Below are positions 5,263-37,363 of a DNA stretch of 37,558 nt, one piece after another. The stretch is from positions 1 to 37,558 of the IMG/VR virus record IMGVR_UViG_3300032311_000171. The stretch is one strand, 5' to 3'. How positions within the stretch are numbered: position 1 is the first letter of the stretch; each line of letters opens with the position of its first letter. The position numbers and the translations under genes are program-made. This DNA comes from a virus. Under the pieces are notes generated by a model. That model was given only the letters and a program-made list of their open reading frames with translations. It made no database searches and was not told the origin of the DNA.

Positions 5263-6087
5263 ATGCTGCTTTACCACTTCGCCCTTGACTACGCGATGAA
5301 GTCCGGGGCTTCCTCCGGGTACGCGGAACAACTTCGCGTCCTGACCAAACGACTGCCTTGGCAGGTCAGTGAACTGACCGTTGCCAACATCGACGGCTAC
5401 CTGACTCAGGCTCTCCATAGCCTTGCTCCACAGACGGTGCAAAATCACAGGAGGATGTTGATCACCCTCCGCCGTGCTGCCCTCCGAGGCAACCTGCTGG
5501 TGGACGATTGTACAGGCGAGGTTCGCCGTGTCAAGTGCCCCCGTCCGTTGCCCCGTGCTTGGAGCCATGAAGAGATACGCCGACTGATCGCGGCAGCCCA
5601 AGAAATGCCGGGCGGAACCCAGAAATGTAGATGGAAGATTCTGCTTCCAGCGTGGATTCTTGTGGCCTACAGCAGCGGTCTTCGGCTCGGAGATATGCTG
5701 ACGCTGCGACATGATTCCATCCGTGGAGCCAGAGTTGCATTGGTGATGGCCAAGACAGCCCGCCCGCATGTAGTCATGCTGGACAGCGCCGCCCTCCAGG
5801 CCATCGCATCCCTCCCAATCTCAGGCCCCCTTATCTTCGGGGGTCTGGTCGGAAGGTGCGTACTTATACGGGCGTTCAGAAGACTTGTCAAGCGGGCCGG
5901 AATGGCCGGGTCAGGGCGGTTTCTTCGCCGCTCGTCCGCGACCTATGCAGCCATCGCCGGAATGAACCCCTCGGACCACTTGGGCCACATGACCCCCGGA
6001 CTCGCACGGCGGTGCTACGTCGATCCGGTCTTGGTGGCTGAGCTGAAGAACCCGGTGCCGTCAGTCGCTCTAGCCGTTGATCCCTAG
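5263..6087 (+). CDS. int: Tyrosine recombinase / phage integrase
   Basis: 274 residues from ATG at 5263, chosen because GAGAGGGG lies seven bases upstream; an in-frame ATG at 5179 adds 28 residues without family character. An N-terminal SAM-like core-binding domain (about 1-90) precedes the catalytic domain. Box I arginine lies in SSGLRLGDML (R141), the beta-hairpin lysine in VMAKTARPH (K164), the second histidine in LGHMTPG (H242) and the nucleophile in RRCYVDP (Y252). The usual HxxR of box II is RFLRR here (R219, R222), so the first histidine is replaced by arginine. It catalyses site-specific integration or excision. It is the only plus-strand gene and converges with the 1256-residue gene (18-base overlap). 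Confidence 0.88.
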   Translation: MLLYHFALDYAMKSGASSGYAEQLRVLTKRLPWQVSELTVANIDGYLTQALHSLAPQTVQNHRRMLITLRRAALRGNLLVDDCTGEVRRVKCPRPLPRAWSHEEIRRLIAAAQEMPGGTQKCRWKILLPAWILVAYSSGLRLGDMLTLRHDSIRGARVALVMAKTARPHVVMLDSAALQAIASLPISGPLIFGGLVGRCVLIRAFRRLVKRAGMAGSGRFLRRSSATYAAIAGMNPSDHLGHMTPGLARRCYVDPVLVAELKNPVPSVALAVDP

Positions 6088-9000
6088 CATCTGCATCGGG
6101 TCCATGGCCATCTGCTGCTTCTTCTTTTCACGGGCACGCTTGGCTGCCTCGGACTGGATGATCTTGTAGAGGAGGTACATGTCTTGCTGTTCCTTCGGCA
6201 TCGACATGAGTGCCTCGTCTGGAACCGTAAGGTTCTCGTAGGTCCGCACGCCGGGTGTGGCCTCAAGCAACTGGTTGAGCATATCCCGGGCGGCGAGTTG
6301 CTTGGTGCGCTGAACGTCAACGTCTTGGAACTTCAGCCCAGTGAGAGCGTTGACGAAGAACTTGGAAGCCTTGGATGCTGGATCAAGGCGATCATCCATC
6401 ACCTGACGCACCGTGCCCAAGATGCGCGAGCCGCCGGGGGCATTGGAGATGACTTGCTCAAGCACCCGGCCAGGCGACCCAAGCGGTTGCTCAAGCATTG
6501 AGTAGAGGTCCGACAGTTGCCTGTTGGAATAGAACTGTCGGTTGGTTGCCAGTTCCAGCGGACCCTTGATGAGCGGGTTCGTCTGCCCGAGGATGTTGAG
6601 GGCCGTCTTCTGCAGCGTGTCGCCCGCCTTGTCGAACAGGCTGTTGCCCACGCCGGGGCTGAAGAGATTGATGACGCTTTCGTACGGCAGGTCGATGTTC
6701 GTAAGGTAGCGCCGCAGCGGGCTTGATGGGTCAAGGCTGACGAACGGAAGGCCAGTTGGCACAGGGATGCTTGCCGACTGCCGAAGGTTCTCGGGAGTGA
6801 AGTTCTCTTCCGTGGGCTGCGAGGCCCGAGAGATGGCGCGGATGGACTTGCCCATCAGGCCAGCCGGGTTGTCTACAAGCTGATCCGCGATCAGAGGCGT
6901 GATGCCTCGCGTGTATGAATAGAACGGAAAAATCCGCTTCATCACATCGCGCTCAAAGTCGGTGAATGCGTCTGGCTTGTAGTTAACCTGGGTCAGGTCA
7001 GTGATTCGCCGTGCCTCTTCCGGGGCCACCCCCCTGCGAATCTGGTTGAGGTACGTGCCGTAGCGGTTGCCTGAGTCGGTGAACTCCGCAAGCCGGTCGC
7101 CGCCCTCAAGGATCGGATTGCGATTGCCCGATGCAGTGCGAAGGCGGAACGGCCAGTAGTCAGACTTCCAAGGCATCCAGCCATCAGTGAGCTTTGCGCC
7201 CTTAAACACATCCAGCATGGAGGGTGTGTCTGGGGCTGCACCGCCTGGGTACATCTCTCGCAGGTTGGCCGACCCTGCGCCAGCCAGCAGTTCGTCTGCC
7301 GCCGTGCTCGTACCCAAGCCCTGTGACCCAGCGCCGATCAGGAACTTGCGAACGGCCTCTTCCTGCGACAGACCTTCATATCCGGGAGCCTTGGCCAAAC
7401 GCTCTGCTACGGATGGCAGCAACCCAAACAGCCCGCGCCCGTAGTAGTTGCCGGTTCGCATCCGCGTTCCGGCAGCCCAGTCCAATGGGTTGAAAGCATT
7501 CTTCATCGCCGCAGCAAACGCACCCGAGTAGGCGTCACGCGAGTAGCGGCTTGGCCAGATGAGAGCCAGCGTCTTAAACATCTTGGCGTAATCGTCGTAA
7601 GCCTGAGCGAGCGGCCCAAGCTCCGGAGGCATCCGCCCGCGGTCGGCAACCCTAGCCCAATCGTCTACGAACTTCTTGTTGAACGAGACGTTCTCTAAGT
7701 TGTCCACGCCAAGGCGAGACGCCAGAACCTCGGAGGCGTTTTCGCCCGTAAGGCCAAGGGCTGAGAGAGCCTCTTCTGGCGTGTAGTTGACAGCCCCCGG
7801 AACTCCTTCGGCGCGAACGCCACTGAAGTTCCTGCCGAGGATGTCGTACATCTGATCGGCGTTGACTTCTGCCCGGCCGCGACCAAGGGCGTAACGAGCC
7901 ATCTCGTTGAACGTGTTCTGTCCAAAGAGCGGAATCTGCTTCTCGGCATGCTGCGGGTCCAGCGTGCGGAGCATCTCAGACAAGTCGCCGTAGAGCTGCG
8001 ACTTGTAGTACTCACGCTGCACCTGCGGCAGAGAATTGGTGAGTGACTCAAGCGAAGCCCTGGCCGCCGCCTCGCGGGCTGTCTCGCCTGAAAGCCGCGC
8101 CTGATTAAGCTCCTTGCGTGCATTGGCTATGTCTTTGGCAAGCCAATGTTCGTCGGGAAGTTCGGGAACGTCGTAAACGTACTCAAGCGGCCCTTCGCCA
8201 AGTGCCTCTGCTGCCTCGTCGCTCAGGCGTGGATCGCTCGCGGGCCGCGCCTTCTCGTCAATCCATCCGTACAGGTCGCCAGCATTTCCGATGTCCACTT
8301 CGCCAGCGTGAGTCAGGTCATGTTCTGGCCCGCTGTACAGATCAAAGTCTTGGTGCCGGCCGCCGCTGACCTCAGGGTGGTTGCGAGTAACCCAGTCCTC
8401 AATGATTGCTCGCCCTTCGTCAACGTCAGCCTCGCGCAGTGCCTTCTGAAGATCGGCATCCAGCGACATCCTGTTGAGGATGTCTGTCCCGCCGATAACG
8501 TCGTACGCAGGGTTCCGGCCCCGTCCGTAGTTGTCATCGAACGTGACCGGGCGATTGCCCCGGCTGTATGGCTTCTTGAGTTTCTCTGGCGGGATTGTGC
8601 CAGCAGCCCAATTGGGAATGAGCGGATTGTCGAAGACGGTCTGCTGCCTGGGGACCAATCCAACGCCGGCCTTGGACTGAAACTCTTGGAGCGGCATGCC
8701 GAGTTCTTCGGCGTTGCGCATGGCGGTGTCGCGGTAGTTTGCAAACCAGTCGGTGAGTTTCTGCACCTCTGGGATGCTGAGTGCGCCGCCCATCTCACGC
8801 ACGGCCGGGATGTCTTCGCCATGCTCAAGCAGATTGCGAACGGCCTGCGAGACTTCTGGATCACTCAGCGAATACCCGGCGTTGCGAAGACCTTCATTGG
8901 CGTCCATCTGCAACTTGGCGAGGGTCGCCCGGTCGGATGTCTCGCGTGCCCGCCGAGCCGCCATGATGGTCTTGGCATCCCACTGTCGGTCGCGGTCAAC

Positions 9001-9840
9001 GAACCCGAGGACATCGGGATTGAATGCTCGCTCCAGCTCTCTCGCTGCACGGCCAGTGAATGGGTTGGTCATCAACCCTTCGCCAAGCGTGTCGCCCGTC
9101 TTGGCTAGCCAGTCGCCCGCAGCCTTGCCGTATAAGTCAGTGGCGCCGTCTTTCATAAACGGAAAGGAGACGCGATTCATCTTGGCAAGCGGTGCGGCGA
9201 GCATGTCATCCGTGCCGCCTGCGTTCTTAAACTTCAGCAACGCTTCAGCCCGAGAGGCGTCTGACGGCATTGCGGAAAGCAGGTCGTTCACGTTCTTGGT
9301 GCGAAGTGCCTCGCGCTCGCCCATGCCAAAGACGTTGCGAGCCTGCACGCCAAAGTCTTGGAGCATGCCAGCCCGGGCCGCTGCTTGGCCTGCGGCAGTC
9401 TTGGCGCCCTTGCCGACCAGTTGGTTCAGACCAAGCGACAGGTATGTGGTCGGATCAAGAAGCACTTCGGCCGCCAGCCCGCCCCCGAAGTTGCTCCACG
9501 TATCCTCGTCGCCAACCATCCCGTACTGACGCAACAGCTCGCGTCCATCGACCCGCTCGTCGCTTGTGTCCCAGAGAGCGGAGATGCCCTTGCCGATTCC
9601 GCCCGAGAGCGTGCCTCGCACCATGGCGCCGGGGGTGTCAAGAATCCACCCAAGGCCAGCAAGGCCGGAAGAGCCAGCGGATGCAAGCTGCTGCATCAGG
9701 CTGCTCTGATCCTCCTTTGGCATCAGGTCAGCGATCTGCCGCCGACGCTTCTGCCCAGTCAGGGGGTCAATGTCGTACTCGGACTGCCCGGTCAGCAGTC
9801 CATCTGGATCATAGAGATCGAAGAGCGGGGAGCGTGCCAT
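6070..9840 (-). CDS. Giant polyvalent-type internal virion protein (LPD38-like)
   Basis: 1256 residues, the largest gene here. The N-terminus has a pattern known from very large phage proteins: ILDTPGAMVRGTLSGGIGKG near 66-85, then GRELLRQYG, and LAAEVLLDPTTYLSLG. The C-terminal third has ALIWPSRYSRDAYSG and, near 958-980, DFERDVMKRIFPFYSYTRG followed by TPL and NPAG. That is the motif I associate with large polyvalent protein domain 38 (LPD38). Such proteins are thought to be packaged and ejected with the DNA. The middle is helical, charged and unrecognised. It follows the 538-residue gene with no spacer (TAAATG) and ends against the integrase. Motif recognition is from memory. Confidence 0.7.
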   Translation of the reverse strand: MARSPLFDLYDPDGLLTGQSEYDIDPLTGQKRRRQIADLMPKEDQSSLMQQLASAGSSGLAGLGWILDTPGAMVRGTLSGGIGKGISALWDTSDERVDGRELLRQYGMVGDEDTWSNFGGGLAAEVLLDPTTYLSLGLNQLVGKGAKTAAGQAAARAGMLQDFGVQARNVFGMGEREALRTKNVNDLLSAMPSDASRAEALLKFKNAGGTDDMLAAPLAKMNRVSFPFMKDGATDLYGKAAGDWLAKTGDTLGEGLMTNPFTGRAARELERAFNPDVLGFVDRDRQWDAKTIMAARRARETSDRATLAKLQMDANEGLRNAGYSLSDPEVSQAVRNLLEHGEDIPAVREMGGALSIPEVQKLTDWFANYRDTAMRNAEELGMPLQEFQSKAGVGLVPRQQTVFDNPLIPNWAAGTIPPEKLKKPYSRGNRPVTFDDNYGRGRNPAYDVIGGTDILNRMSLDADLQKALREADVDEGRAIIEDWVTRNHPEVSGGRHQDFDLYSGPEHDLTHAGEVDIGNAGDLYGWIDEKARPASDPRLSDEAAEALGEGPLEYVYDVPELPDEHWLAKDIANARKELNQARLSGETAREAAARASLESLTNSLPQVQREYYKSQLYGDLSEMLRTLDPQHAEKQIPLFGQNTFNEMARYALGRGRAEVNADQMYDILGRNFSGVRAEGVPGAVNYTPEEALSALGLTGENASEVLASRLGVDNLENVSFNKKFVDDWARVADRGRMPPELGPLAQAYDDYAKMFKTLALIWPSRYSRDAYSGAFAAAMKNAFNPLDWAAGTRMRTGNYYGRGLFGLLPSVAERLAKAPGYEGLSQEEAVRKFLIGAGSQGLGTSTAADELLAGAGSANLREMYPGGAAPDTPSMLDVFKGAKLTDGWMPWKSDYWPFRLRTASGNRNPILEGGDRLAEFTDSGNRYGTYLNQIRRGVAPEEARRITDLTQVNYKPDAFTDFERDVMKRIFPFYSYTRGITPLIADQLVDNPAGLMGKSIRAISRASQPTEENFTPENLRQSASIPVPTGLPFVSLDPSSPLRRYLTNIDLPYESVINLFSPGVGNSLFDKAGDTLQKTALNILGQTNPLIKGPLELATNRQFYSNRQLSDLYSMLEQPLGSPGRVLEQVISNAPGGSRILGTVRQVMDDRLDPASKASKFFVNALTGLKFQDVDVQRTKQLAARDMLNQLLEATPGVRTYENLTVPDEALMSMPKEQQDMYLLYKIIQSEAAKRAREKKKQQMAMDPMQMLGING

Positions 9841-12540: not shown

Positions 12541-12820
12541 TCTTCTTCCCCTTCTTCTTAGGAACGTCAGGGAGTTCGTCCTTGCCGTGGTACGGCAGGT
12601 CATCATCCGTGACCATCGGCGTGTTGGGCTTGCCGTGCATCTCCTCATGGAGGTCGGCCAGCTCGTTCTTCTCTTCCTTGGCGTTACGAGGCCCAGTTTT
12701 TTTGCCAAGATTCTTGACTATCTTCCTCTCCTCCTCGTCATCAGCGACAAGGAGTTGCTTGACCAGCCGCTTCAGTGCGGTGTTAGTGAGATCGTCTAGA
12801 TCAAAATCTATACGTGCCAT
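12533..12820 (-). CDS. Small charged protein, 95 residues
   Basis: The start is taken at ATG 12820 (MARIDFDLDDLTNTALKRL) because it has GGAA seven bases upstream and a coherent helical N-terminus; a longer frame to 12859 overlaps the previous gene more. The first half is an acidic/basic amphipathic helix (KRLVKQLLVADDEEERKIV). The second half is Lys/Asp/Pro-rich and probably disordered, ending KKKGKKNV. It sits between two internal-protein candidates and overlaps the upstream gene by 20 bases. No recognised family; could be a small scaffolding or DNA-condensing factor, but that is a guess. Confidence 0.55.
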   Translation of the reverse strand: MARIDFDLDDLTNTALKRLVKQLLVADDEEERKIVKNLGKKTGPRNAKEEKNELADLHEEMHGKPNTPMVTDDDLPYHGKDELPDVPKKKGKKNV

Positions 12821-13271
12821 TGTAGTTTCCGAAGGAACCGAGATTGCTTGTGTTACCAATGCTCCCCAGCAAGCCGCCGAGAGCGTTACCCTGGAAGTTC
12901 AGTACGTTCTGCTGTCGTTGCAGAGCGGCCATTGCATTGGCGTAGTCGTTCTGCTGTGCGATGTTGGATATGCCCTGACCAAAGTTCTCTTGGTTGGTCT
13001 GGTACTGGAGCGTGTTGTTCGCGTTGGTGGACGCATCCTGAGCGGGAACCTGATACGCTTTAGCAATGCCGTCAGCGAGGTTCTGGGCGGCTTGGATTCC
13101 TGCCACAGCCATCGTCCCCTTGCCACGCGACACGCCATTGCGGTCCATGGCCTTCATGTTGAACCGCGGGTCGGCCGCTGCTTGGGCATTAGCCAGTTCC
13201 GTGTTGAACATGCCCTGCGTGTTCGGGACCAACTGCGGGGCGAATGTCGAAGTCGTTGTGGCGTAGTTCAT
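12801..13271 (-). CDS. Ala/Asn/Gln-rich virion protein candidate, 156 residues
   Basis: Starts MNYATTTSTFAPQLVPNTQG. The body is rich in Ala, Asn, Gln and Gly with almost no charge in its second half (NDYANAMAALQRQQNVLNFQ, GNALGGLLGSIGN). The composition matches the neighbouring 121-residue and 776-residue proteins. Its start overlaps the upstream stop by one base (TGATG), so the three are probably made together in fixed ratio and may assemble together. Likely an internal or ejected virion protein; no family recognised. Confidence 0.6.
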   Translation of the reverse strand: MNYATTTSTFAPQLVPNTQGMFNTELANAQAAADPRFNMKAMDRNGVSRGKGTMAVAGIQAAQNLADGIAKAYQVPAQDASTNANNTLQYQTNQENFGQGISNIAQQNDYANAMAALQRQQNVLNFQGNALGGLLGSIGNTSNLGSFGNYNGTYRF

Positions 13272-13636
13272 CAGAAAAGATTCCCCAGAATTCCGTTAAG
13301 CCCGCCAGACAACTTGCCGAGGTAGTCCAGCTTCATTGACTGCTGGGAGTTGGCGAGGTTGTTGGCGTTCTGCTGGGCCGTAGCCATCTGCTGCAGCCCA
13401 GAGAGGGCCGTGGACTGCTGGGCCTGCTGGGCATTGGAAAGGTACTGGTTATTGGACGTTGCCGCGGCACGCTCGTAATCCAAGCCCGCGGCCATGGCGC
13501 GAGCGTTGTAGACATCCGCTGCCGATCCCGGGTACTGGAGAACGCCACCCTGCGCAGCCAGCCCAGCAAGAGCTTGCTGCTGCATGCCTTGGGTGACCGG
13601 CGGCTTGTTCTGTATTCCGGTGTCGTATGAGAGCAT
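13271..13636 (-). CDS. Ala/Gln-rich virion protein candidate, 121 residues
   Basis: The start is ATG 13636 (MLSYDTGIQNKPPVTQGMQQ), which shares its A with the stop of the 776-residue gene (TGATG). A longer frame to 13711 only overlaps that gene. The protein is an Ala/Gln/Asn-rich amphipathic helix (NAQQAQQSTALSGLQQMATA) ending in LGKLSGGLNGILGNLF, a hydrophobic glycine-spaced tail that could insert in a membrane. Companion of the hendecad protein by position and composition. Function unknown. Confidence 0.6.
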   Translation of the reverse strand: MLSYDTGIQNKPPVTQGMQQQALAGLAAQGGVLQYPGSAADVYNARAMAAGLDYERAAATSNNQYLSNAQQAQQSTALSGLQQMATAQQNANNLANSQQSMKLDYLGKLSGGLNGILGNLF

Positions 13637-15966
13637 CAGCCGTACCACGCCTTGTTCATGCGGTCGAAGGTTGCGTTGCCGGTGGGCTTCATCGGGTTGG
13701 CCTTCTTCCATGCTGCCATGCTTGCCGCATCTGCAGCGCGAGCGTCGGCCATCATTTGTGCCTGCGATTGCATCGGACGTTGCTGTGCCTGCTGGAACCC
13801 GCCGTTGGCCATCTTGTACAGATCAGTGACCTGATTCATGGCGCTTTGCCGGCCAGCGTTGTTGGCGGTGTTGAACGACCCATACGCAGAACCAAGCTGT
13901 GAGCCGAGCGAGCCAACCTGACTTGCGCCCTGCTTGAGAGCCGAGCCAAGAAGTTCAGCACCGTCTCGCGGGATGTTGGCGTAGAACTGGTTCATGCCGT
14001 TGTTGAGTTGGCCGTAGCCGCTGGACATGGCGCTCTGCATGTTTCCAAGGCCACTGTTCACCCAGCTGCTCAACAGGTTGTCGTTCGTAGCCATCGAACT
14101 GCCGAGCTGATCCCGACCGGCCTGCCCAGTCTGCATGAGGTAGCTCGCGATGGGCGACGAGTTGATGGAGTTGCGAGACTGATTGATCGCGTCATAGCCC
14201 TGACTGAGCGACGATCCGATCCCTGACTGCGACCGAGAGAAGTCGTTGTTGATGCCGCTCATGGTGGTGTTCAGCATGCCGGGGATGGCGCCGGCCTGGC
14301 TGGCCGTGTTCCGCAGCGCCCCGAAGGCGTTAGCCCCATCGCGGTCCATCGCCTGCATGGAGGTGTTCAGCATGCCGGGAATTTGGCGGTTGGCCGATGC
14401 CAGCCCGCTGTTGAGGTTGGCGTACCCCTGTTGGCCAGAGGACCTGATGCCCTGCATGCCCGAGTTAAACATGCCGGGGATGTTGGAGAGCTGGTTTGAG
14501 AGAGCGCCGAGCTGGCCGTAGGTCGAAGCGGAGTTATTCCCAATCGCCCCACCTCCCGCCGCACCCGTTCCGTAAAGGCCGCTGAGGACCTGCTGGTCTG
14601 CACCACCCATCTGTCCCGCGGCGTATGGCATCTGGTTCGGGAACGGTGCCAGGTACTGCGGACTCTGGTACCAAGCCGGCGAAGTGTTGGGCGAGTATCC
14701 GCCACCACCAAAACCCCCACCGCCCCCATAGCCTCCACCGCCACCACCAGACGAGTAGCCGCCAGATGCGTACCCGAGCGGCTCGCCAGCCGCCGTCATG
14801 CTTACGCCGCCGCTACCGCTGCCTCCGCCGTACCCACCACCGCCAAACGCGCTGCCAGCAACGCCGATCTGCCCAAGCCCAAGCTCCCGAGCCAGGCCAA
14901 GTTTGGCCATGTCTGCCTGATAGCTGGCGCCCGTGTTGTATCCGGCGAGATTTGTGTTGGCCAGCGAGGACAGCATGTTGCCGCGCGCCGTCTGCGATGC
15001 CGACCCGTACTGCGCCTGGGCGGTCCCCAGCGTGCCGTACATGTTACCGAGGGCGGTGTTGGTGGCGGCTCCGAAATTACCTGCGGCGGTGCCAAGGCTT
15101 CCGGCAGCCTGACCGTACGCATTGCCCATAGCGCCGGCCATGTTGCCGTAAGCGCCGGCCATGCTTCCGCCAAGGGCAGCGTTGGACGAGTTGTAGCTGT
15201 TGAGCGCGGAGCCATAGGCCGACCCGAGCGCCCCGGCCGTGTTGCCCCGAGCCGTCGCCAAGCCAGCGCCAAGGTTGCCGGCCGAGTTTGCAATCCCGCC
15301 CAAGACGCTGCCGTACGCAGTGCCGAGAGAACTGGCCGCGTTCGACCTCGCGGTGGAGGTTCCGGTCCCGAGCTGGCTGTAAGCGTTTGCCCCAGCGCCG
15401 CCGAGTGATGCTGCGGAAGCACCAAGGCCGGCGAGGGCATTGTTCTGGGAAGCCCCGTAGGAACTCATGGCCCCTTGGTTCGCGGCCTGCATGTCGGCCA
15501 TGGCCTTGTAGGCGGCAGACTGATTCTGGGCTTGGGCGCCAAACGCTCCGCCCATCATCTGGCCCATGGCGCTCAGGCCGGCTGTGCCGATGTTGGCGGC
15601 TGCAATCTGCCGCGCGGCCTCGGTCTGGCCCATCGCAGAAGTCTGATTGGAGTACAGGTTCTGGAGGTTGTTGCCGTAGTTGCCGTACAGATTGGCCAAC
15701 GAAGAGCCAATCCCGCTCATGCCTTGGTTGTAGGCGTTAAAGGCGTTAGCGCCAGATGTGGCGTAATTGCCGTAGATGTTGGCCGGCTGGCCGTACAGCG
15801 TCCCTTGGGCGGCGGCTTGGGCAGCCCCAATTTGGCCATTGGCGGCAGCCTGGGCGGAGTCAACTTGGGCGTAAGCCTTTAGGTGATCCGAGGCGACTTT
15901 GGCAGCCGCGGCTTGGGACACCGGGTCGCCGCTGAAGGTGTAGTTCGGGACTTTGATAAAGGCCAT
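13636..15966 (-). CDS. 776-residue hendecad-repeat virion protein
   Basis: Starts MAFIKVPNYTFSGDPVSQAA, with GGAG six bases before the ATG. The protein is almost uncharged and made mostly of Ala, Gly, Ser, Asn, Gln and Tyr. Residues about 156-342 form some 17 consecutive 11-residue units such as AGALGSAYGSA, GGSMAGAYGNM and AGAMGNAYGQA. A glycine hinge at about 372-424 (GGGGGGYGGGGGFGGGGY) follows. A second 11-residue array lies at about 496-604, with three IPGM[FL]N units 33 and 32 residues apart. Spacing 3-4-4 of small or apolar residues predicts a right-handed coiled coil. The position among internal-protein candidates suggests a structural or ejected protein. No homologue recognised; a sheath, conduit or membrane-spanning assembly is inference. 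Confidence 0.75.
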   Translation of the reverse strand: MAFIKVPNYTFSGDPVSQAAAAKVASDHLKAYAQVDSAQAAANGQIGAAQAAAQGTLYGQPANIYGNYATSGANAFNAYNQGMSGIGSSLANLYGNYGNNLQNLYSNQTSAMGQTEAARQIAAANIGTAGLSAMGQMMGGAFGAQAQNQSAAYKAMADMQAANQGAMSSYGASQNNALAGLGASAASLGGAGANAYSQLGTGTSTARSNAASSLGTAYGSVLGGIANSAGNLGAGLATARGNTAGALGSAYGSALNSYNSSNAALGGSMAGAYGNMAGAMGNAYGQAAGSLGTAAGNFGAATNTALGNMYGTLGTAQAQYGSASQTARGNMLSSLANTNLAGYNTGASYQADMAKLGLARELGLGQIGVAGSAFGGGGYGGGSGSGGVSMTAAGEPLGYASGGYSSGGGGGGYGGGGGFGGGGYSPNTSPAWYQSPQYLAPFPNQMPYAAGQMGGADQQVLSGLYGTGAAGGGAIGNNSASTYGQLGALSNQLSNIPGMFNSGMQGIRSSGQQGYANLNSGLASANRQIPGMLNTSMQAMDRDGANAFGALRNTASQAGAIPGMLNTTMSGINNDFSRSQSGIGSSLSQGYDAINQSRNSINSSPIASYLMQTGQAGRDQLGSSMATNDNLLSSWVNSGLGNMQSAMSSGYGQLNNGMNQFYANIPRDGAELLGSALKQGASQVGSLGSQLGSAYGSFNTANNAGRQSAMNQVTDLYKMANGGFQQAQQRPMQSQAQMMADARAADAASMAAWKKANPMKPTGNATFDRMNKAWYG
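14941..15501 (-). repeat. Array of about 17 eleven-residue protein repeats
   Basis: Codes for residues 156-342 of the 776-residue protein. Units align without gaps; the consensus is roughly x-G-x-[LM]-x-x-A-x-G-N-[ML], with Ala at position 7 in most units. DNA identity between units is low, so the pattern is kept at protein level. Confidence 0.75.
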
Positions 15967-15991: not shown

Positions 15992-17017
15992 TCAAAGGGC
16001 GTTCTTTTCCACGGTCCCCTCTGGCGTGAAGTCAATATCCTTGGTGCCGTCCTCCTCAATAGCGCAGGATTCCGCGTTAAACTTGTATTTTGGCACCTTA
16101 ATCTTGGCTTTTTTGCCCTTGAACGCATGCGTGTGCGGGAGGGGCTTTGCGGGAAGACCATCCTTGCCATCCTTACCGTCCTGGCCTCCGCCCTGGATGA
16201 TGTTTATCACCGTGTTGGTGATGTAATTAATCAGGTTTATGGTGCGGTTGTCGTTCGTAATGAACGTCTTGTTTTCGTCCAGGTACGTGTCGCCCTGATG
16301 GATCACATCCCCTTGGTTGATGACCGTGGACTGATTGATCACATCGCCCTGGTTGACGGTGTTTTCAAAGTAGGAGTCACCCTCAAAGTTGTTGACGGTC
16401 TGGTTGTAGCTGTTTTGGGTTGTCTGAAGGGTGGTGGAGAAATCGTTGTAGCTGTTATCTGTGTACTGGTTGTTGTACCAGTTGCTGACGTTGTTGTTCT
16501 GGATGGAGTTGTTGACGTTGTTTGTTGAGTTGTTGTAGGTGTTGTAGTCGGTCTGATTGTTTATGTTGAAGTTTTGGGAGTTGTCGTAGTTGTTGGTGGT
16601 CTGATAGTTGTCGCCATAGAACGTGTCACCCCCAAAGAAATTACTGGTGTTGTCATTGTTGGTGGTGAAGTAGCTGTTGTTGGTGTCACCGCCGTAGTTG
16701 TTGACATTCCAGACGTTGGGCGGGTAGTTGTTGATCGTCCGGTAATCTCCGCCGTTTAGGTAATTCTGGAGATTATTCGTTGTGTTGTTGGTGTTGCTGT
16801 CGTAGTAGTTGTTAGTGACGCTTCCTACTCCTGGGGGTGAATTAATCACGCCCCCCGGCGGTGCTTGGCTGCCCGCTCCAGTATTAATTGACACGGGACC
16901 GTTCTGCCGCAAGCCTTGGATGCAGTTGGCGAAGACTTGCAGCAGCGCCTGAGACTGCTGCTGGCCTGCTGGGAGGGCGAGAGCAGCGGCTAAGGCATTG
17001 CTCTGCTGTGTGTACAT
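15992..17017 (-). CDS. Asn-rich fibre protein with collagen-like segment
   Basis: 341 residues. A helical N-terminus (1-40) is followed by an Asn/Thr/Tyr/Asp-rich tract at about 69-215. Then come NQGDVI repeats (221-246), a short hydrophobic coil (TINLINYITNTVINIIQ, 259-275), a collagen-like GQDGKDGKDG (278-287) and a basic-then-acidic end. The layout is that of a trimeric tail-fibre or spike shaft: beta-rich shaft, trimer coil and collagen triplets. It likely extends from the virion for host contact. The start overlaps the nozzle stop as TAATG. Asn-rich tracts are striking in a GC-rich genome. Fibre role is inferred from composition and position. Confidence 0.6.
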   Translation of the reverse strand: MYTQQSNALAAALALPAGQQQSQALLQVFANCIQGLRQNGPVSINTGAGSQAPPGGVINSPPGVGSVTNNYYDSNTNNTTNNLQNYLNGGDYRTINNYPPNVWNVNNYGGDTNNSYFTTNNDNTSNFFGGDTFYGDNYQTTNNYDNSQNFNINNQTDYNTYNNSTNNVNNSIQNNNVSNWYNNQYTDNSYNDFSTTLQTTQNSYNQTVNNFEGDSYFENTVNQGDVINQSTVINQGDVIHQGDTYLDENKTFITNDNRTINLINYITNTVINIIQGGGQDGKDGKDGLPAKPLPHTHAFKGKKAKIKVPKYKFNAESCAIEEDGTKDIDFTPEGTVEKNAL

Positions 17018-19383
17018 TACGCAGTCACTCCACCGATGGTGACGCCGTGCAACACAATCGGGGAGGAGGACTGAGAGCCTGACAGGGCGACGGCTAAATG
17101 CCTGTCTGCACCAGACGAGCGGTCGTTGGCCCTGCCGGAATACCGGGCCGTTGAGTAGCCATTGGAATCGCCAAGCGCCGACCGTCCGGTTCGCATGTCA
17201 ATCACCACGCCAGTCGGGGAAGCCACAACTCCTTCGCCGCGGTCGGAGTCAACGGCATTCGATCTAGCCGTGGATGAGTTGTTGTAGTGAACCTTGAGCG
17301 TCAGGTCGGCCGTGGTGGCGGTGGGCTTGTACAGGACACCGATCTGACGGGTTGGTTCGTCCGTGATCACCAGCGGGCCAGTGCGCAGTTCGTACGGGAT
17401 GGTTGCGGTGGTGTTCCCGCTTGTGTCCACAAGGCCCGTGTTGGCCTTGAGGAGCTTCCCATCGGCGGAGCCAGAGACTAAGGACTGCTTGCCGCTTATG
17501 CGGATGACGGTGGAGGCGCCGACCCCTTGGGGATATGTCTCCTCCCACCAAGTTTTTGTCGCAAGTGAATAGCACAGTGCCCTCGGGGGAGTGGTGCCGT
17601 CCGTGGACTTGCAGTAGTGGAAACGAATCACCCGCGAAACCGGGTCGGCCTGGACAAAGAAGTTGGCCGACTTGGAGAAGTCAATGACACTGTCTCTCCA
17701 GTAATCATCCACCGCTACAGATAGCGGCTCCATGCTTGAGCCGTCGAAAGCGTACATGCCAAACGAGTCAACGCAGTACAGCCCACCCTCAAAGGTGGTC
17801 CAGCATCGCTTGTTTAAAAGCCCGCGGTATCCGGCCAGAGTGACGGCCGCGTCGATGACCGGCTGGGCCACGTACGTGAGGCGGTACATGTGCTTCTCTT
17901 GGGCGACGAGCATCATGGCGCCATAGGGAATCAAGGCCACCACCCGGTCTTGGGAGCCGGTGTTGTTCTGGATCACAATCTCATTCACGTACGGAACGGA
18001 TTCTGCCTCATCTGTCTCAGAGAACAGCAGCGTGTTTGGTCGCGTGCCGTTGGTGTTGGCCCCGTACCAGGCGCGGTCTTGGAACCAGCAGGCGTCTTCC
18101 ATGTCCGTGGGCGGCACTTCAAAGCGATACGCATTGAGCTGGCCTGACGGGAGAGTGATCGGCATCAGGCCGTATCCAGAACGAGTTGGACTGATCAGCG
18201 TAGCCTCGTCCATGGTGTCCGTGTACGTGGACGGCAACACCCCGCCAGACCTCTCCAGGAGCGCAATGCGATAAAGGACAACAGCCTGGTTTGCTGATGT
18301 GCGCCACAGCTCCACGGCCACGGCCCGTGAGTCCGCGGCGGCATTGGACCAGTTCCAAGTAAAACCCGAGGCGCCCTCGCCGGCCTCAACGGTGACAAGC
18401 TCCGAGAGGCTAGAAGGAATAGGCCCGCCGTCCCCAATAAGCGTGTTGTCTAGGAACCTGTATCCGCAGCGGTACGATCCTCGCATAGGCGAGCGGATAA
18501 GCGTTTCGGCCCTAGCGGCATTGCCGAGGACACTCGCTGTCGGAATGACTGCGTAAGCGCCTTGTGACGTTACGACAGGGTCGGCCGGCGCGCCAGAAGT
18601 ATTGGCGATGCAATAGGCTGCGGCCCCGGAGCCACTGATGGAAGAGAACTGCACAGGCACCGTCCCAGCAAACCCCGAGCCTCCTGTGACCGTGAGCCCC
18701 GTTACAGCGTACGACATGATGCACTTGACGGCGGCACCCGATCCTCCACCGACTGCGTAGATCGTTGCGGTGGCTCCTGTCGTAGCGCCCGAGCCGGGGT
18801 TGACAACCCTGACTCCGCTCACGCGGCCATCGGTGATGTCAACTTCCCCGATGGCGCCGGTGAACCCAGTGTTCCCGAAAAAACTGATGGTCGCGCCGTT
18901 TGTGTAGCCCGATCCGGAGTTGGTTGGTATGACCGCCCCGATGCTGCCATCAACAACAACCTGCACAGTGGCCCCGCTACCGCGCCCGCCACTCAGTGCG
19001 ATCTGGGGGCGAGATGTGTAATTCCTGCCAGCGTTGGTGACGATGACATTGGCTACTCCTCCGTTCTTGAGCTTAGCCAAGCCTTGGGCGTGATTAGTGT
19101 TTCCTTCGGCCAGGCCACCTCCAGAGAACGCTACAGTGGGCGGCTGGAAATATCCTGAGCCAGACGCGATGACTTCTACGGCAGCGACGATGTTGGCCGT
19201 CGCTGCGATAGTGGACATCGTTAGCCCTGCGGTTGGGGCCTGCATGCCGATGTACTCAGCATTCCCGTCGCCTGACCACCTTACCCCACGCCCGCCACCG
19301 TTCACGCCGTAGATGTACTTGTACTGACCCTTAAACAGCGAAACCTTGGTTGACCCAGTGAGCGTAGCGCCGTTGATCTTCAT
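17017..19383 (-). CDS. Tail nozzle-like protein with inserted beta repeats
   Basis: 788 residues. After a short N-terminal beta region, residues about 68-262 hold five GSGY/GGSG-type beta repeats typical of phage adhesins (for example ASGSGYFQPPTVAFSGGG). The rest, about 290-788, resembles the beta-propeller of podovirus tail nozzle or tail tubular B proteins: RCGYRFLD, VELWRTS, WFQDRAWYGA, LLFSETDE, NEIVIQNNTGS, GMYAFDG, ATKTWWEE. The nozzle closes the short tail after DNA packaging. The usual N-terminal piece is in the preceding 89-residue gene, overlapped by ATGA. Assignment rests on motif recall and on position next to the connector candidates. Confidence 0.7.
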   Translation of the reverse strand: MKINGATLTGSTKVSLFKGQYKYIYGVNGGGRGVRWSGDGNAEYIGMQAPTAGLTMSTIAATANIVAAVEVIASGSGYFQPPTVAFSGGGLAEGNTNHAQGLAKLKNGGVANVIVTNAGRNYTSRPQIALSGGRGSGATVQVVVDGSIGAVIPTNSGSGYTNGATISFFGNTGFTGAIGEVDITDGRVSGVRVVNPGSGATTGATATIYAVGGGSGAAVKCIMSYAVTGLTVTGGSGFAGTVPVQFSSISGSGAAAYCIANTSGAPADPVVTSQGAYAVIPTASVLGNAARAETLIRSPMRGSYRCGYRFLDNTLIGDGGPIPSSLSELVTVEAGEGASGFTWNWSNAAADSRAVAVELWRTSANQAVVLYRIALLERSGGVLPSTYTDTMDEATLISPTRSGYGLMPITLPSGQLNAYRFEVPPTDMEDACWFQDRAWYGANTNGTRPNTLLFSETDEAESVPYVNEIVIQNNTGSQDRVVALIPYGAMMLVAQEKHMYRLTYVAQPVIDAAVTLAGYRGLLNKRCWTTFEGGLYCVDSFGMYAFDGSSMEPLSVAVDDYWRDSVIDFSKSANFFVQADPVSRVIRFHYCKSTDGTTPPRALCYSLATKTWWEETYPQGVGASTVIRISGKQSLVSGSADGKLLKANTGLVDTSGNTTATIPYELRTGPLVITDEPTRQIGVLYKPTATTADLTLKVHYNNSSTARSNAVDSDRGEGVVASPTGVVIDMRTGRSALGDSNGYSTARYSGRANDRSSGADRHLAVALSGSQSSSPIVLHGVTIGGVTA
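18598..19182 (-). repeat. GSGY-type beta-repeat insertion in the nozzle protein
   Basis: Encodes about residues 68-262 of the 788-residue protein. Five degenerate units of about 40 residues follow the scheme V-x-x-x-GSGY-x-x-x-P-x-V/I-x-(beta)-GGxGSGA. Similar repeats are widespread in phage fibres and virion surface proteins. Confidence 0.6.
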
Positions 19384-19649
19384 GTCGGCCCCTTGGCGTA
19401 GAACAGGACACCAGAAGCGTTCTGGTACACCACCGTCTCAAGCGTGCCGCTCTGAAACCTTTGGAGGGTTGTGATCGGGATCGTTGAGCCAGAATGAGTG
19501 GTCCAAGACATCGAAGTCATGCCCTTGCGAACCGTCAGTTGGCCGGGGTTAAGGCACTGGAGATTGACTTGGGTAACTGCTGCGCCGGGAGGGATGGCGT
19601 ACGGACTGACGTTGGTAGCAAGCCCAGCCCACTTTTCGATGATGATCAT
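19380..19649 (-). CDS. N-terminal piece of the nozzle protein (separate ORF)
   Basis: 89 residues: MIIIEKWAGLATNVSPYAIP, then PGAAVTQVNLQCLNPGQLTV and a beta-rich end GVLFYAKGPT. The phrase 'NVSPYAIPPGAAVTQVN...PGQLTVRKG' is how podovirus nozzle or packaged-DNA stabilisation proteins normally begin. The continuation they need is at the start of the next gene, which overlaps by ATGA. This looks like one protein split in two, or joined by a frameshift. It is probably a structural component of the tail. Confidence 0.65.
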   Translation of the reverse strand: MIIIEKWAGLATNVSPYAIPPGAAVTQVNLQCLNPGQLTVRKGMTSMSWTTHSGSTIPITTLQRFQSGTLETVVYQNASGVLFYAKGPT

Positions 19650-20794
19650 GCGCCCTCGTCAGCCTTGAGCGGACTCCTCCAGCCACCGTCATGCCAGATT
19701 TCTCGCGTCCTGCCAGAGAGCGGGGCGAGCTGGTCTTGCTCTAGGGCCAAGCGGAGGTCGCGCTGGTAAGTGGAGAAAGACTGGTCTGCCTTGCCGCCGC
19801 GGATGCGATCCAGCCAGTAGGCGGCGCAGGAGTGAAGGACGGTCTGCATGTGCCTTGCCACATCGGCCGGGTCAGTGACGATAGCCTTCTGAAAGGAGAT
19901 GTTGGCGTCGGGCGAGTCAACGATAGCCGTGTCGCTGGCGTTCACTGTGGTTGTGATTTCGGTGATGACGGCTTCAGACACGTACGGGGTCATCGACTCA
20001 ATCGGACCAGGGAAATCTGAGGAGGTTCCGATCCGCATTACGGACCCGACCATGGGTGCAGAAAATGCGCCAGTGGCAGCAATTCGCTCCGATGGGTCGC
20101 TGGACGAAACGGAATTAAACCGCATCGACGGCTCATGGCCCGAGTACCTGATCTGCCTCGGGTAGCGACGGTAGGTGAAGTCCAGCGTCTCTTGCGATGT
20201 CGGATAACCAACGAGCTTGAGGATGTACCCAGACCCATTGGGGTTCTTGAGGACGGTCCAGTGCCATGGTCGGCCCGACCTGTTCCCGACCCGCTCCAGT
20301 TTCATCGCCTCGTCAGGCTTCAGATACAGGCCAGACCACCAGTTGAACTCGTTGGACGGCTCGTCCATGTTGCGGAAATCGGCCGGCAGGGCGTAGTCGG
20401 TTTGGTAGAGAACGTATGCCTGACCGGCTGCGAGAGTGCTTGCAAACGTCAGAGTTGTGTCCAGCGCCAAGATTGTTGGGGACACGCGCGTGGCGACTTT
20501 GGCAATCGAACGGCCAATGGACACCGAGCCGCTCTCGGCCCATGTGGGCCAAGTTCCGCCAGAGAGCGTGAGTTGGTTGGTAGTGGCGTTAAAGGCCACC
20601 GTCCCAGTCTGGTACTGGGGCTGGGTGATGATCCGGCCGTGCTGGTAGTAGTGCGACCACTCAGTGACAGTGGTGACTTCGCTATAGGCACGCTGCACGG
20701 CAGTGCGGATGTCTCGCTGTTCAGCGTCCTGCGGGCCGCCGTAGGAGGAGACGATGAGATTCTCAACAAGATCGAAGTAGGTCAGGTACGACAT
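19646..20794 (-). CDS. Head-tail connector / tail tubular A-like protein
   Basis: 382 residues. The N-terminal half is helical (LTYFDLVENLIVSSYGGPQD, then DIRTAVQRAYSEVTTVTEWS), with a beta insertion and the phrase YALPADFRNMDEP. A C-terminal helix follows (CAAYWLDRIRGGKADQSFS). Adaptor proteins that dock under the portal often have this plan, and the neighbour downstream is nozzle-like. I infer a connector or gatekeeper role that joins portal to nozzle. Start and stop overlap both neighbours (TGATG and ATGA). Confidence 0.6.
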   Translation of the reverse strand: MSYLTYFDLVENLIVSSYGGPQDAEQRDIRTAVQRAYSEVTTVTEWSHYYQHGRIITQPQYQTGTVAFNATTNQLTLSGGTWPTWAESGSVSIGRSIAKVATRVSPTILALDTTLTFASTLAAGQAYVLYQTDYALPADFRNMDEPSNEFNWWSGLYLKPDEAMKLERVGNRSGRPWHWTVLKNPNGSGYILKLVGYPTSQETLDFTYRRYPRQIRYSGHEPSMRFNSVSSSDPSERIAATGAFSAPMVGSVMRIGTSSDFPGPIESMTPYVSEAVITEITTTVNASDTAIVDSPDANISFQKAIVTDPADVARHMQTVLHSCAAYWLDRIRGGKADQSFSTYQRDLRLALEQDQLAPLSGRTREIWHDGGWRSPLKADEGA

Positions 20795-23588: not shown

Positions 23589-25619
23589 CTACTGTCCCGG
23601 GGGAGGGGCTTCTGGCTGACCTTGTGGCGGCTGTTCCTGCGGAGGGCCTCCTTGCGGGGGCTGACCTGGAGGAGGCCCTGGGGGTGGCGGAGGGGGAGGG
23701 GGCACGGCGAAGTCGGCCACATCCATCTGGTTGACCTCGCCCCACTTGGCCATGAGGGTGTTGAAGAGTTCCGGCTTGCCGGCCTGCAACATGCCCTGAG
23801 CGACAGGCATCATCACCTGCATCAGGTTGTTGAGGTTCTCTGTCTTGGTAGCAATGTTGGGCTTCCTCGCGGAGCCGGCTTCGACCCGGTAGTCGTACTC
23901 CCTGACAATGGAGTCAGGGTCTTCCTGCTGTACGTGCATCCGCCACGCTTGGGCTGCCATCGGACCCATGAACGGGGCAACGTCTTGAGGTTGAATCAAC
24001 CAGCGGGCAAGGAGCGCTTCCTTCCTTGCGACATCCGACAGAGCGTCCTCCAGCGTGTTCGCATAATCGTCTGGCCTGACCGAGATTTGCTCGGCCTTCA
24101 CGTTGGCTTCTGCAGCTGACCGGAACTGATTCCTGGTCATCCCGTAGATGAGCTCTGTCAGGCCCACTCGCCGGTCGAAGAGGTTCGTCACCTCCGCGAT
24201 GATCTTGTATAGGTCTTCGGTGACTGCAGGAAGCTGGAAGACTGAGATCACATCGTTGACCGACCGTCCGATGGCTTCGGAGATTTCCACAATCTTGAAA
24301 CCGCCCTCCGACTTCTCAAGCAACTTGCTCTTGAGGTTCTCGTCCGCAGCCTTCGACACACCAATCAGCACTTGGCTGGACGCTGCGATGCGAGTTGCAA
24401 GGAAGGACATCGCCCAATTAATGAATCGAAGCTCACCGATCCCGGGCCGGATCAGCGACACTGGCCATGAGTAGCCAGGCTTGCCGTGCCACGCCAAGAG
24501 TGTGAACGGCCACCCGTTCGGCTCGGCCCAGAATGGGATGGGCCACTGGGTATTCATAAACAGTTGCTGGGGAATACCCGTCTCGTCAACTTGCTCTTGG
24601 AGCATCTTGGGCGGGCAGTTCAGCGGGAAGTCCACGCCCTCGGCAACGACGATGTAGCAGTTCGGCCCCATGGCATCGAACTTGCCACGGAGGTCTTTGT
24701 CAGAGTCCTTGAGCCGGTCACCGAATCCGATCTTGGAGTAGACCTCCCAGTAACAGATAAGGTCGGCCGTCTTGCCGTTTCTCTTCTGAGTCCTGTACCC
24801 GCGCTGATCCTCATTCACCCGAGACGAGTAAGACTCGGCGTGACCCTTGAGGTCTTCAATCGACAGTCCAAACTTCGCCGCCACTTCATCGACTGGCTGA
24901 ACACGCTTGCGCGCTGCCCAGCGGATGTCTTCAAACTCGTCGGCATCCGGGTCCCAAGTCAGGTTGTCAATGGAGTCAAAGAACGAGCCAGCCATCTTCA
25001 CGTTCGACCCGGGCGGGGAATACAGCTCATGCCACCACACGCCGGCGCCCTTGATGAACGCCTCTTCCACAACCTTCCGAGAGTGACGCTTTAGGTCCAG
25101 TTCGTTGGGTGTGTAGTTGAGGTAGTCTTCCAAGAGTTTGGAGACAACCTTGCGGCGCTCAAATGCGAACTGCTGCTGCTGCATGCCCTGCTGGTATGCT
25201 TGAACTCCAGGATCGGGCATCATCACCGGTTGGCCGTCAGGCCCCATTACAGGGCCTTGAGGCCCCATCTGCGGAACCGGGGGCTGCGGGAAGATTCCCA
25301 ACAGCTGCGGGCCGATGATGGGGAACTGCCTGGCGCTGACCGTCCGGTTGGGGTTCCGGTGGTGAATGACCGCCGAGAACAGACGCACAGCCTCCCAGAC
25401 ACGGTTGACCGTCATCCGAAAGGCAGGTGGGTCGATGCCGCGGTTGTAGCCCCGCTCGCCCATGGCATAACTGTTTTCCCACATAACCGATGGATCGCTC
25501 GCGTAGAACCCCATCGCTTCTTTTGCATCGTCTGTGAACGCCTTCTTGTGAGCCTCTCCCAAGCTGATCAATTTTAGCCAGTTCTTCGCAATCGGAGCCA
25601 GAGGGTTGTCGTTGCTCAT
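23589..25619 (-). CDS. Portal protein
   Basis: 676 residues, in the size range of podovirus-type portals. Portal-like features: an N-terminal helical region with NRVWEAVRLFSAVIHHRNPN, a central GAGVWWHELYSPPGS and IDNLTWDPDADEFEDIRWAA, and a late helical stem/crown region (IAASSQVLIGVSK, AEVTNLFDRRVGLTELIYGM). The portal is the dodecameric channel for DNA entry and exit. Two unusual low-complexity parts are present: a Pro/Gly/Gln insertion at about 108-150, and a C-terminal tail from about 636 made largely of Pro, Gly and Gln. The start overlaps the HNH gene as ATGA. Confidence 0.85.
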   Translation of the reverse strand: MSNDNPLAPIAKNWLKLISLGEAHKKAFTDDAKEAMGFYASDPSVMWENSYAMGERGYNRGIDPPAFRMTVNRVWEAVRLFSAVIHHRNPNRTVSARQFPIIGPQLLGIFPQPPVPQMGPQGPVMGPDGQPVMMPDPGVQAYQQGMQQQQFAFERRKVVSKLLEDYLNYTPNELDLKRHSRKVVEEAFIKGAGVWWHELYSPPGSNVKMAGSFFDSIDNLTWDPDADEFEDIRWAARKRVQPVDEVAAKFGLSIEDLKGHAESYSSRVNEDQRGYRTQKRNGKTADLICYWEVYSKIGFGDRLKDSDKDLRGKFDAMGPNCYIVVAEGVDFPLNCPPKMLQEQVDETGIPQQLFMNTQWPIPFWAEPNGWPFTLLAWHGKPGYSWPVSLIRPGIGELRFINWAMSFLATRIAASSQVLIGVSKAADENLKSKLLEKSEGGFKIVEISEAIGRSVNDVISVFQLPAVTEDLYKIIAEVTNLFDRRVGLTELIYGMTRNQFRSAAEANVKAEQISVRPDDYANTLEDALSDVARKEALLARWLIQPQDVAPFMGPMAAQAWRMHVQQEDPDSIVREYDYRVEAGSARKPNIATKTENLNNLMQVMMPVAQGMLQAGKPELFNTLMAKWGEVNQMDVADFAVPPPPPPPPGPPPGQPPQGGPPQEQPPQGQPEAPPPGQ

Positions 25620-35612: not shown

Positions 35613-36461
35613 TTACGGGGACTCTTCGTACTGCGATGCAACCCCAGTGCCAACAGCGCCAGGCACTGCGTACTTGCGGAGGATGCGGATTGAATCCTCG
35701 GCGCCAGGAAAGACCACGTAGTTGCGAGTTCCAGCACCTGCGGCGCGCGAGGATTGATCGAAATACCTTGCGCCCGGTATGCCATGTCGCAGCAGGGATT
35801 CAGAAACCTTCGCAGCTGATGCGGCCCTACTCAACATCGGATTGTCGGTGATGGAGTTGTAGGCTCGCAGAAGGCTCTCGGTCGCAATCTTGGCACGCGC
35901 TCCCCTGTCGGCAATCTCTTTGACGGCCATCCTTTGCCACTTGTTGTCGGGCGCCTCAAATGCAGCCCCAAGCATCGCGGCCTTATGCTCGCCTGTCGCG
36001 GGAGCGTCCAAGTCTAATAGGGCTTCTTCCGGATAGCCTATCTCAACCTCGTACATGTGCCCCGTCCGCTCGCGAGGCGTGATCGGAACCCCTGATTCAA
36101 CAAGCTCTCTAGCCTTCCTGATGATGTCCTGCTGGTCGCTGGAAGTGTAGCCGTACTGGCCCGGCTGAGATGCGTGCATCCCCAAAACCTTTAGCGTGCT
36201 GGGGGCGTCCCCTCCGTTAGCCGCGAGATACTCGGCCGCAGCCTGCTCAGGGCTTGTGTAAGGAGCGTCGAAGGCAAGCATGTCTCTGTAGTGCTTGGCA
36301 ATTGGTTCTGACTCGGCAAAGTAAAGTCCGTGTCCAAAAGCCTGCGCGCCTTCTCCCGTTCCGATCTTGCTTGCATCAAAACGATCAAAGTCATGCGGGC
36401 TGCCGTGGTAGGCCCTGATGACAGAGCGGACGGCATCGCCGGCTTCGTCCCACTTGTTCAC
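35613..36461 (-). CDS. ADP-ribosyltransferase of the polyvalent-protein type
   Basis: 282 residues from GTG at 36461, chosen because it overlaps the upstream stop as GTGA and gives MNKWDEAGD, like another internal protein here; a GTG at 36470 is also possible. ART hallmarks: RAYHGSPHDFDRFD (H19), then GTGEGAQAFGHGLYFAES (Y47) and IAKHYRD. Late strands ARYFDQSSR and GTRNYVVFPG follow, with Asn where classic enzymes have the catalytic Glu. This matches my memory of ART domains in phage polyvalent proteins, which modify host proteins with ADP-ribose from NAD after ejection. Here the domain stands alone. The Asn could mean a changed reaction or a variant active site. Confidence 0.75.
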   Translation of the reverse strand: MNKWDEAGDAVRSVIRAYHGSPHDFDRFDASKIGTGEGAQAFGHGLYFAESEPIAKHYRDMLAFDAPYTSPEQAAAEYLAANGGDAPSTLKVLGMHASQPGQYGYTSSDQQDIIRKARELVESGVPITPRERTGHMYEVEIGYPEEALLDLDAPATGEHKAAMLGAAFEAPDNKWQRMAVKEIADRGARAKIATESLLRAYNSITDNPMLSRAASAAKVSESLLRHGIPGARYFDQSSRAAGAGTRNYVVFPGAEDSIRILRKYAVPGAVGTGVASQYEESP

Positions 36462-37363
36462 TCTTCCCACGGCAGCTTGCCCTTCCAGTAGTTGTCGTAG
36501 GTTTTTAGGGCGGTGTCTGGATTTGCCATCGCAACATCGGGGGCGACTTCCATGAGGGCGCCAAGAGCCGTCATGCCAGCGGCCTTGGCTGCGGCGGGGA
36601 ACGCGCCTTTGAGTGACCGGGCAGGGAGTTGAGAGATTCCCCTAATGCTGGACGGCCAGGATAGGAAGGCATCCATCACTGGGCCGGCGAACTTGGCAAC
36701 ATCCGGACCAGTGCCCGAGTCCTCCAAGAAGTCGCGGCCCGCCTCCAGGACGGGAATATCCTTGTGGACCCTCTCTGCTATCGCACGGTCCCGGACTCCG
36801 GAGGGGAAGATGCCTGTCTTGGATTCCTTCTGCAGCGGGGCGACATTCGACTGTTCTCGCCAGTAGGAAGGCTTGTTGGCCCCCAAAGCATTCCCAGTGA
36901 GGGTGTTGAGAGCGTATTCGTAGTTGTCGTATGCCTCGGGGTGGGGACCTCCTTCTCCACCAAGGGCCTCATGCACTTCGTTGCCCAGCATCTTGCCGGT
37001 GGCGTAGATCGCAGCTGGCATGGACTGCGCCCACTGGGCGGCATGCCAGATTGGGTAGTCGCCCTCCCGGTCTTCGTAGGCCGATGTGTACGTGGAGGGG
37101 GACTTGCGATAGAAGTCCGCGGCTGCCCTGATCGGCTCTGGGATGTTTTCGTAGGCGTGCAGACGAGGGTACTTCTGGTTCAGTCGCTCCAGAACGTACG
37201 CCGCTCGCCTGTCGGAATCCAGGCGAGGCAATGACTTGCGTCTCTTGGTCCAGACGCTCCAGTCGTTAGTCGCCATGTCCGCAAGGGATGTGCCGCCATT
37301 GGCGAGCGGAAGCGCTCGGGCTTCCTCCATAAGGGCACGCAGGTCCTCCATCGGGTCAGCCAT
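36458..37363 (-). CDS. Internal virion protein candidate, 301 residues
   Basis: Starts MADPMEDLRALMEEARALPL. The body is helical with many Trp/Tyr (YPIWHAAQWAQSMPAAIYAT, NYEYALNTLTGNALG). The phrase KGAFPAAAKAAGMTALGALM near 260-280 forms an apolar glycine-spaced helix. The style resembles the N-terminal part of large polyvalent phage proteins, and the ADP-ribosyltransferase follows with a GTGA overlap, so the two may be parts of one ejected set. No catalytic motif seen. Confidence 0.55.
   Translation of the reverse strand: MADPMEDLRALMEEARALPLANGGTSLADMATNDWSVWTKRRKSLPRLDSDRRAAYVLERLNQKYPRLHAYENIPEPIRAAADFYRKSPSTYTSAYEDREGDYPIWHAAQWAQSMPAAIYATGKMLGNEVHEALGGEGGPHPEAYDNYEYALNTLTGNALGANKPSYWREQSNVAPLQKESKTGIFPSGVRDRAIAERVHKDIPVLEAGRDFLEDSGTGPDVAKFAGPVMDAFLSWPSSIRGISQLPARSLKGAFPAAAKAAGMTALGALMEVAPDVAMANPDTALKTYDNYWKGKLPWEE

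Follow-up and report, generated by a model that had tools for sequence, protein, structure and literature searches.

A hendecad-repeat protein with length-matched arms in an uncultured short-tailed phage: a probable antiparallel helical hairpin and candidate ejection-channel component

The window analysed here, the 37,558 nucleotides of IMG/VR virus record IMGVR_UViG_3300032311_000171, encodes a 776-residue protein (P0001, the hairpin protein) that is a hendecad (11/3) helical repeat protein. Its two halves have stayed equal in length through evolution, and the protein is therefore most likely a hairpin rod, doubled back on itself. From its gene position and by analogy, this protein of an uncultured freshwater-type phage may be a T7 gp14-like ejection-channel protein, a reading to which a probability of about one half is given. 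What appears new against the literature searched is the length-matched hairpin form, together with its change of length in paired steps, and not the repeat itself.

The gene lies on the minus strand, running from an ATG at 15966, preceded by AGGAG, to a stop at 13636 that overlaps the start of a 121-aa gene in the sequence TGATG. The protein was divided into the following segments.

13636..15966, minus strand: hairpin protein P0001, 776 aa, identified by an open reading frame with AGGAG, same-locus orthologs and dN/dS
15592..15924, minus strand: distal half of the N arm, residues 15-125, with a low-confidence model helix at 15-100 and a lag-11 z of 4.4 (residues 1-155)
15397..15633, minus strand: conserved core motif AARQ..NIGTAGLSAMG..NQ.A, residues 112-190, with columns nearly invariant family-wide
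14941..15501, minus strand: first 11-residue array, residues 156-342, 17 gapless units, from composition, periodicity and register
14521..14943, minus strand: Gly-rich hinge or tip, about residues 342-482, with ASGGYSSGGGG at 400, from the model coil at 359-484 and gaps in the long clade
13792..14520, minus strand: second 11-residue array, forming the C arm, residues 483-725, with GMNQFY at 657, from periodicity, helices and arm matching
13639..13791, minus strand: charged C-terminal tail, residues 726-776, from charge and model helices at 730-775

The composition is dominated by Ala (139 residues), Gly (138), Ser (87), Asn (70) and Gln (61). Only 49 residues (21 D+E and 28 K+R), or 6.3%, are charged, and the original prediction of a nearly uncharged 776-residue protein was thus borne out as a real open reading frame on the minus strand. 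The C-terminal tail is 19.6% charged, compared with 2-8% in the arms. Comparison with orthologs gave a dN/dS of 0.11-0.24 for the reading frame, indicative of purifying selection at the protein level. The distal half of the N arm begins after a conserved YTFxGDPVSQAAAAK motif. An AlphaFold2 monomer model was of low confidence (pLDDT 52.6, pTM 0.24), too weak to tell whether the arms touch, and placed low-confidence helices at residues 15-100, 112-197, 217-287 and 294-336, a short one at 349-358, coil at 359-484 and helices again at 496-720; for most of the tail helices at 730-775 the pLDDT was about 90.

The repeat was examined by identity autocorrelation over the whole of P0001, in which the top lags were 33, 11 and 22 (z of 7.9, 7.8 and 5.3; 0/1000 shuffles), and by Fourier analysis of the bulky hydrophobic residues, which gave a peak at 3.663 residues, close to 11/3, that was reached by 0/500 shuffles. 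Residues 156-342 alone gave the same 3.66-residue peak. Both tests thus place the predicted 11-residue period far above shuffled sequence. The claim of about 17 gapless units in residues 156-342 was matched by a clean register: bulky residues occupy position a in 41% of the units, d in 76%, h in 35% (mostly Tyr) and k in 59%, occur once at i (6%) and are found at none of the remaining positions, while g is Ala in 71% and f and j are polar in 76-82%. The earlier description of apolar residues at positions 4, 7 and 11 is therefore right, with Tyr at position 8 in addition, and register and Fourier peak together support helical hendecads with a small-residue core. The period was absent from ten neighbouring proteins used as controls, and it was present in almost all orthologs, some of which mix 11 with spacings of 18 and 29 and do so without F/W markers.

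The orthologs themselves were found by locus. Direct sequence search recovered close relatives only (L001 and L002 at 92%, L003 at 71%). The portal protein is far better conserved than the hairpin protein and was used as the anchor for a locus search, which showed, at the corresponding position downstream of the portal in related viral contigs, genes of 264-837 aa that are rich in A/G/S/N/Q. Most of these proteins share the core motif, a hinge motif (ASGSYGG) and a C-terminal MNQFY motif, and those with a single match to the hinge motif are 328-837 aa long. No homolog of the hairpin protein was found in 50,697 phage records and no cultured phage was matched; sequence searches of PHROGs, Pfam and the PDB with the family returned nothing, or chance coiled coils, and a BFVD fold search with the low-confidence model gave nothing significant.

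The relationship between the two halves was revealed by insertions and deletions. In the long clade, 22 residues at position 291 in the N arm and 22 at position 483 in the C arm are both missing from P0001 and L001. The mirror image of 291 about the centre at 391.5 is 492, compared with the observed 483, positions here being blurred by the repeats. The other indels in this clade fall in the Gly hinge, in the C-terminal tail, in a few cases at the extreme N terminus, and as a single residue at 523. Similarly, each arm of L114 is missing 29 residues that L115 and L138 have. The paired sequences differ between the arms and are thus not one duplication copied twice.

Because the indels were paired and equal, distances between three landmarks (the core, hinge and MNQFY motifs) were measured in 14 orthologs. 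Core-to-hinge and hinge-to-MNQFY distances were 274/257, 292/277, 292/278 and 294/280 in the long clade, and 99/98, 81/78, 94/89, 103/102, 89/93, 101/97, 101/99, 101/99, 88/84 and 97/92 in the shorter proteins. The mismatch between the inner arms was therefore 5 residues or fewer in the ten shorter orthologs and 14-17 in the long clade. With one protein per clade (n=10) the arm lengths correlated with r=0.999 (permutation p 5e-5), and with r=0.936 when the long clade was left out, while control pairings of mismatched landmarks gave r of about 0. The outer arm segments agree as well (r=0.84, slope about 1), less exactly, with one ortholog at 108/61. Among orthologs found later, L138 measured 101/99 and L140 101/117, the latter off by 16 near the hinge; L051, L061 and L155 fit roughly, at about 62-77 residues per arm with ambiguous alignment. 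The hinge lay at 0.45-0.56 of the length in 21/21 distinct length variants measured (328-837 aa).

Expansions near the hinge are paired between the arms, and distal ones are paired with distal ones, a pattern that an antiparallel hairpin predicts and a simple tandem rod does not. The matched arm lengths thus argue strongly that P0001 is an antiparallel α-hairpin, and this is considered quite probable. It could instead be that both arms are equal because both lie along the same partner, and not along each other. The original prediction had a glycine hinge followed by a second 11-residue array. The second array stands (lag-11 z 3.4 for residues 446-776; model helices 496-720), but the Gly region is better placed at the tip of a hairpin than between consecutive rods, and the picture of one right-handed rod with a separate array gives way to length-matched arms of one hairpin. 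A search of the literature returned no description of a length-matched hairpin form with paired-step variation. Equal arms about a hinge are familiar from SMC and Rad50 proteins, in which the antiparallel arms must stay equal in length; the hairpin protein shows similar arms without ATPase heads or a hinge domain, and the functions are unrelated.

The gene order around the hairpin gene, with proteins given by their length in residues, is portal-179-109-539-102-382-89-788-341-hairpin-121-156-413-538-1256-268-exonuclease-Erf. Related contigs keep it, apart from some genes that are replaced or went undetected in individual loci. The neighbours that bear on the function are as follows.

23589..25619, minus strand: portal protein (phrog_156, E=1e-9)
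17017..19383, minus strand: 788-aa protein with a nozzle-like C-terminal half (profile match to 9nwi_Y, E=3e-4)
15992..17017, minus strand: 341-aa Asn-rich fibrous protein, between the nozzle and hairpin genes
13271..13636, minus strand: 121-aa Ala/Gln-rich protein ending GGLNGILGNLF, its start overlapping the stop of the 776-aa gene
12801..13271, minus strand: 156-aa Ala/Gln-rich protein, from composition and locus position
6070..9840, minus strand: 1256-aa large, conserved protein that closes the cassette, where P22 and T7 have gp16, placed by position only

The C-terminal half of the 788-aa protein matched, at a single moderate profile E-value of 3e-4, a 513-aa chain that occurs six times in PDB entry 9nwi, which is from Pseudomonas phage Pa223 (PMC13299392). 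The profile gave weaker matches to the podophage nozzles 8zkm and 8zkk, while the window protein used as a single-sequence query matched no PDB chain. This nozzle-like gene upstream of the hairpin gene supports the earlier assignment to a short-tailed phage. The N-terminal half (residues about 50-290) carries GSGYTSPPTVTFSGGGGSGA-type repeats and matches numerous profiles of phage baseplate, fibre and virion structural proteins. Further upstream, the genes for the 89-aa and 382-aa proteins (19380-20794, minus strand) are very conserved and have no confident family; by position they could encode an adaptor or connector.

The hairpin gene follows the nozzle-like gene in the structural cassette, as podophage ejection proteins do, and the P22 order 4-10-26-14-7-20-16 parallels the cassette around it, which would put the hairpin gene and its followers in the place of the injection proteins. 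Of the roles first proposed for the protein, a DNA conduit is the likeliest by gene position. In most loci a relative of the 121-aa protein is encoded after the hairpin gene, and the 156-aa protein is likely a second small ejection-type protein. P22 gp7 resembles the small proteins beside the hairpin gene, being 58% Ala/Gly/Ser/Asn/Gln and 10% charged and ending GIGLLGSLF. The likeness to P22 gp7, gp20 and gp16 is otherwise one of gene order and position: profile comparison, with the flanking small proteins included, detected no homology to the P22 injection proteins. The hairpin protein itself showed no similarity to P22 gp7 or gp20 or to T7 gp15 and matched no ejection PHROG, and profile comparisons with the ejection, adaptor and nozzle proteins of P22 and T7 were negative. 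The 11-residue period was absent from the ejection proteins of P22, Sf6 and T7. For the 1256-aa protein no homology was found, P22 and T7 gp16 included, and a PDB fold search with the model of the 1200-aa large protein returned nothing; a cyanophage pre-ejectosome match at E=2.8 was discarded.

The closest functional parallel is T7 after DNA ejection, in which six copies of the internal virion protein gp14, each formed of two antiparallel α-helices and a loop, carry the channel on from the nozzle through the outer membrane as part of the gp14-gp6.7 channel (PMC11784390). The hairpin protein shares with gp14 the position after the nozzle in a podophage cassette and the proposed antiparallel helical hairpin. 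However, gp14 has 196 residues (25-143 resolved), compared with 264-837 in this family, and the proposed hairpin would be 3-7 times longer; gp14 lacks the 11-residue period and is 20% charged compared with 6%, and the PDB and PHROG searches gave no match connecting the two proteins.

On the ejection-channel reading, the N arm (about residues 15-345) would pack antiparallel along the C arm (about 483-725) through a narrow stripe of small residues with 11/3, and also 18/5, spacing. The Gly-rich segment would form the tip loop, and the charged N- and C-termini would lie together at the base. Several hairpins side by side could then build a helical barrel or sheath, by which the channel of the short tail would be continued through the cell envelope during DNA ejection. 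Length would evolve through the gain or loss of equal blocks, of 22 or 29 residues (6 or 8 helical turns), in the N and C arms alike, and a hairpin of 165-420 residues per arm might do a gp14-like job across a longer span, reaching at most about 60 nm in a fully helical form. A further, tentative possibility is that such matched 22- and 29-residue blocks tune a scalable DNA-delivery hairpin, giving a conduit that, if fully helical, would measure roughly 25 to 60 nm; the tuning would perhaps suit the envelope thickness of different hosts. For few short-tailed phages has the way in which they span the envelope been worked out in detail, and sequence searches often miss their ejection proteins, which have diverged too far. 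In this family the architecture can be read from the covariation of length between landmarks, and the relatives of 328 to 837 residues form a series along which conduit length could be traced.

The statement that no described phage protein is of this type was too strong. In ΦX174 protein H, consecutive 11,3 hendecads occur in the α-helices of the DNA-translocating tube (PMC7354561), and tape measure proteins contain variable numbers of 11-residue repeats, with mixed 11-11-18 spacing (PMC3271669). Phage proteins that guide DNA were thus already known to contain the repeat, and the present family suggests that a related chemistry of 11/3 helices and small residues recurs in such proteins of unrelated phages. 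The likeness to H lies in hendecad α-helices in a DNA tube. H differs in forming a tube of ten copies, in which three hendecads are combined with eleven heptads and the units are charged, belongs to an unrelated virus group and is not described as a hairpin (PMC7354561); the PDB search matched the hairpin protein to no chain above chance.

One alternative, considered unlikely, is that the protein is an external fibre or appendage, a multimeric α-helical hairpin stalk on the tail with the Gly-rich tip touching the host. The upstream neighbour is indeed a fibrous Asn-rich protein, and the gene at its place is collagen-like, with GPAGPAG repeats, in L137:1972-2892 and L139:1972-2892. Helix-turn-helix rods are reportedly also used by the head fibres of phi29, to judge from the title of Xiang and Rossmann (2011). 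However, the tip motif and the repeats are conserved across lineages and are not fast evolving, neither a receptor-binding nor a lectin domain was found, and the very low charge and small-residue packing would be unusual in an exposed stalk.

A long helical ruler in a tail tube that sets tail length, as in tape measure proteins, is quite unlikely. The 11 and 11-11-18 repeats described for tape measure proteins (PMC3271669) match the spacings of 11, 18 and 29 seen here, with variable copy number in both, and ortholog length varies widely. A tape measure is, though, one extended chain, for which equal lengths about a Gly hinge and paired indels are not predicted, and the same source, in the part available, describes no central hinge with length-matched arms. 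Tape measures belong to long-tailed phages and carry F/W markers, here replaced by L/M/Y/A; the hairpin gene comes directly after a podophage-type nozzle, and of the window proteins that were scanned none was recognised as a tail-tube protein.

An internal core or scaffold around the portal that stays in the head unejected is likewise improbable. The gene position fits this equally well, and in the mature T7 head the portal barrel is where gp14 and gp15 are first located (PMC11784390), but a fully helical rod could reach about 60 nm, which would seem long for a fixed core in a head of about 60 kb. The 11/3 amphipathic period is also found in synucleins, LEA proteins and ice-binding alanine-rich helices. 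A membrane-lying or ice-binding 11-mer helix of that kind is nevertheless very improbable, as the polar face of P0001 is almost uncharged and lacks KTKEGV-like or Thr-Ala-rich units, no transmembrane segment and no hydrophobic stretch above 0.98 on the 19-residue scale was found, and the gene keeps its place in a structural cassette.

A search for the host with the portal in a genome collection returned three contigs only, all from Planctomycetota bins: L129 and L131 from a Pirellulaceae MAG and L130 from a Planctomycetota MAG, a weak hint. In L130, host genes are joined directly to a portal fragment and the contig may be a chimera. As one of the three is probably chimeric and another is a whole binned phage with broken frames, no host is claimed.

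Elsewhere in the window, 35613-36470 (minus strand) gave a weak match, below the curated cut-off, to ART-PolyVal, the ADP-ribosyltransferase of polyvalent proteins. Finally, in L016:15511-20220 the portal is 93% identical, yet the 89-aa and 788-aa (33%) proteins have diverged, and the hairpin position is occupied by an unrelated-looking short form of 264 aa, which suggests that the nozzle-to-ejection module was exchanged as a unit.
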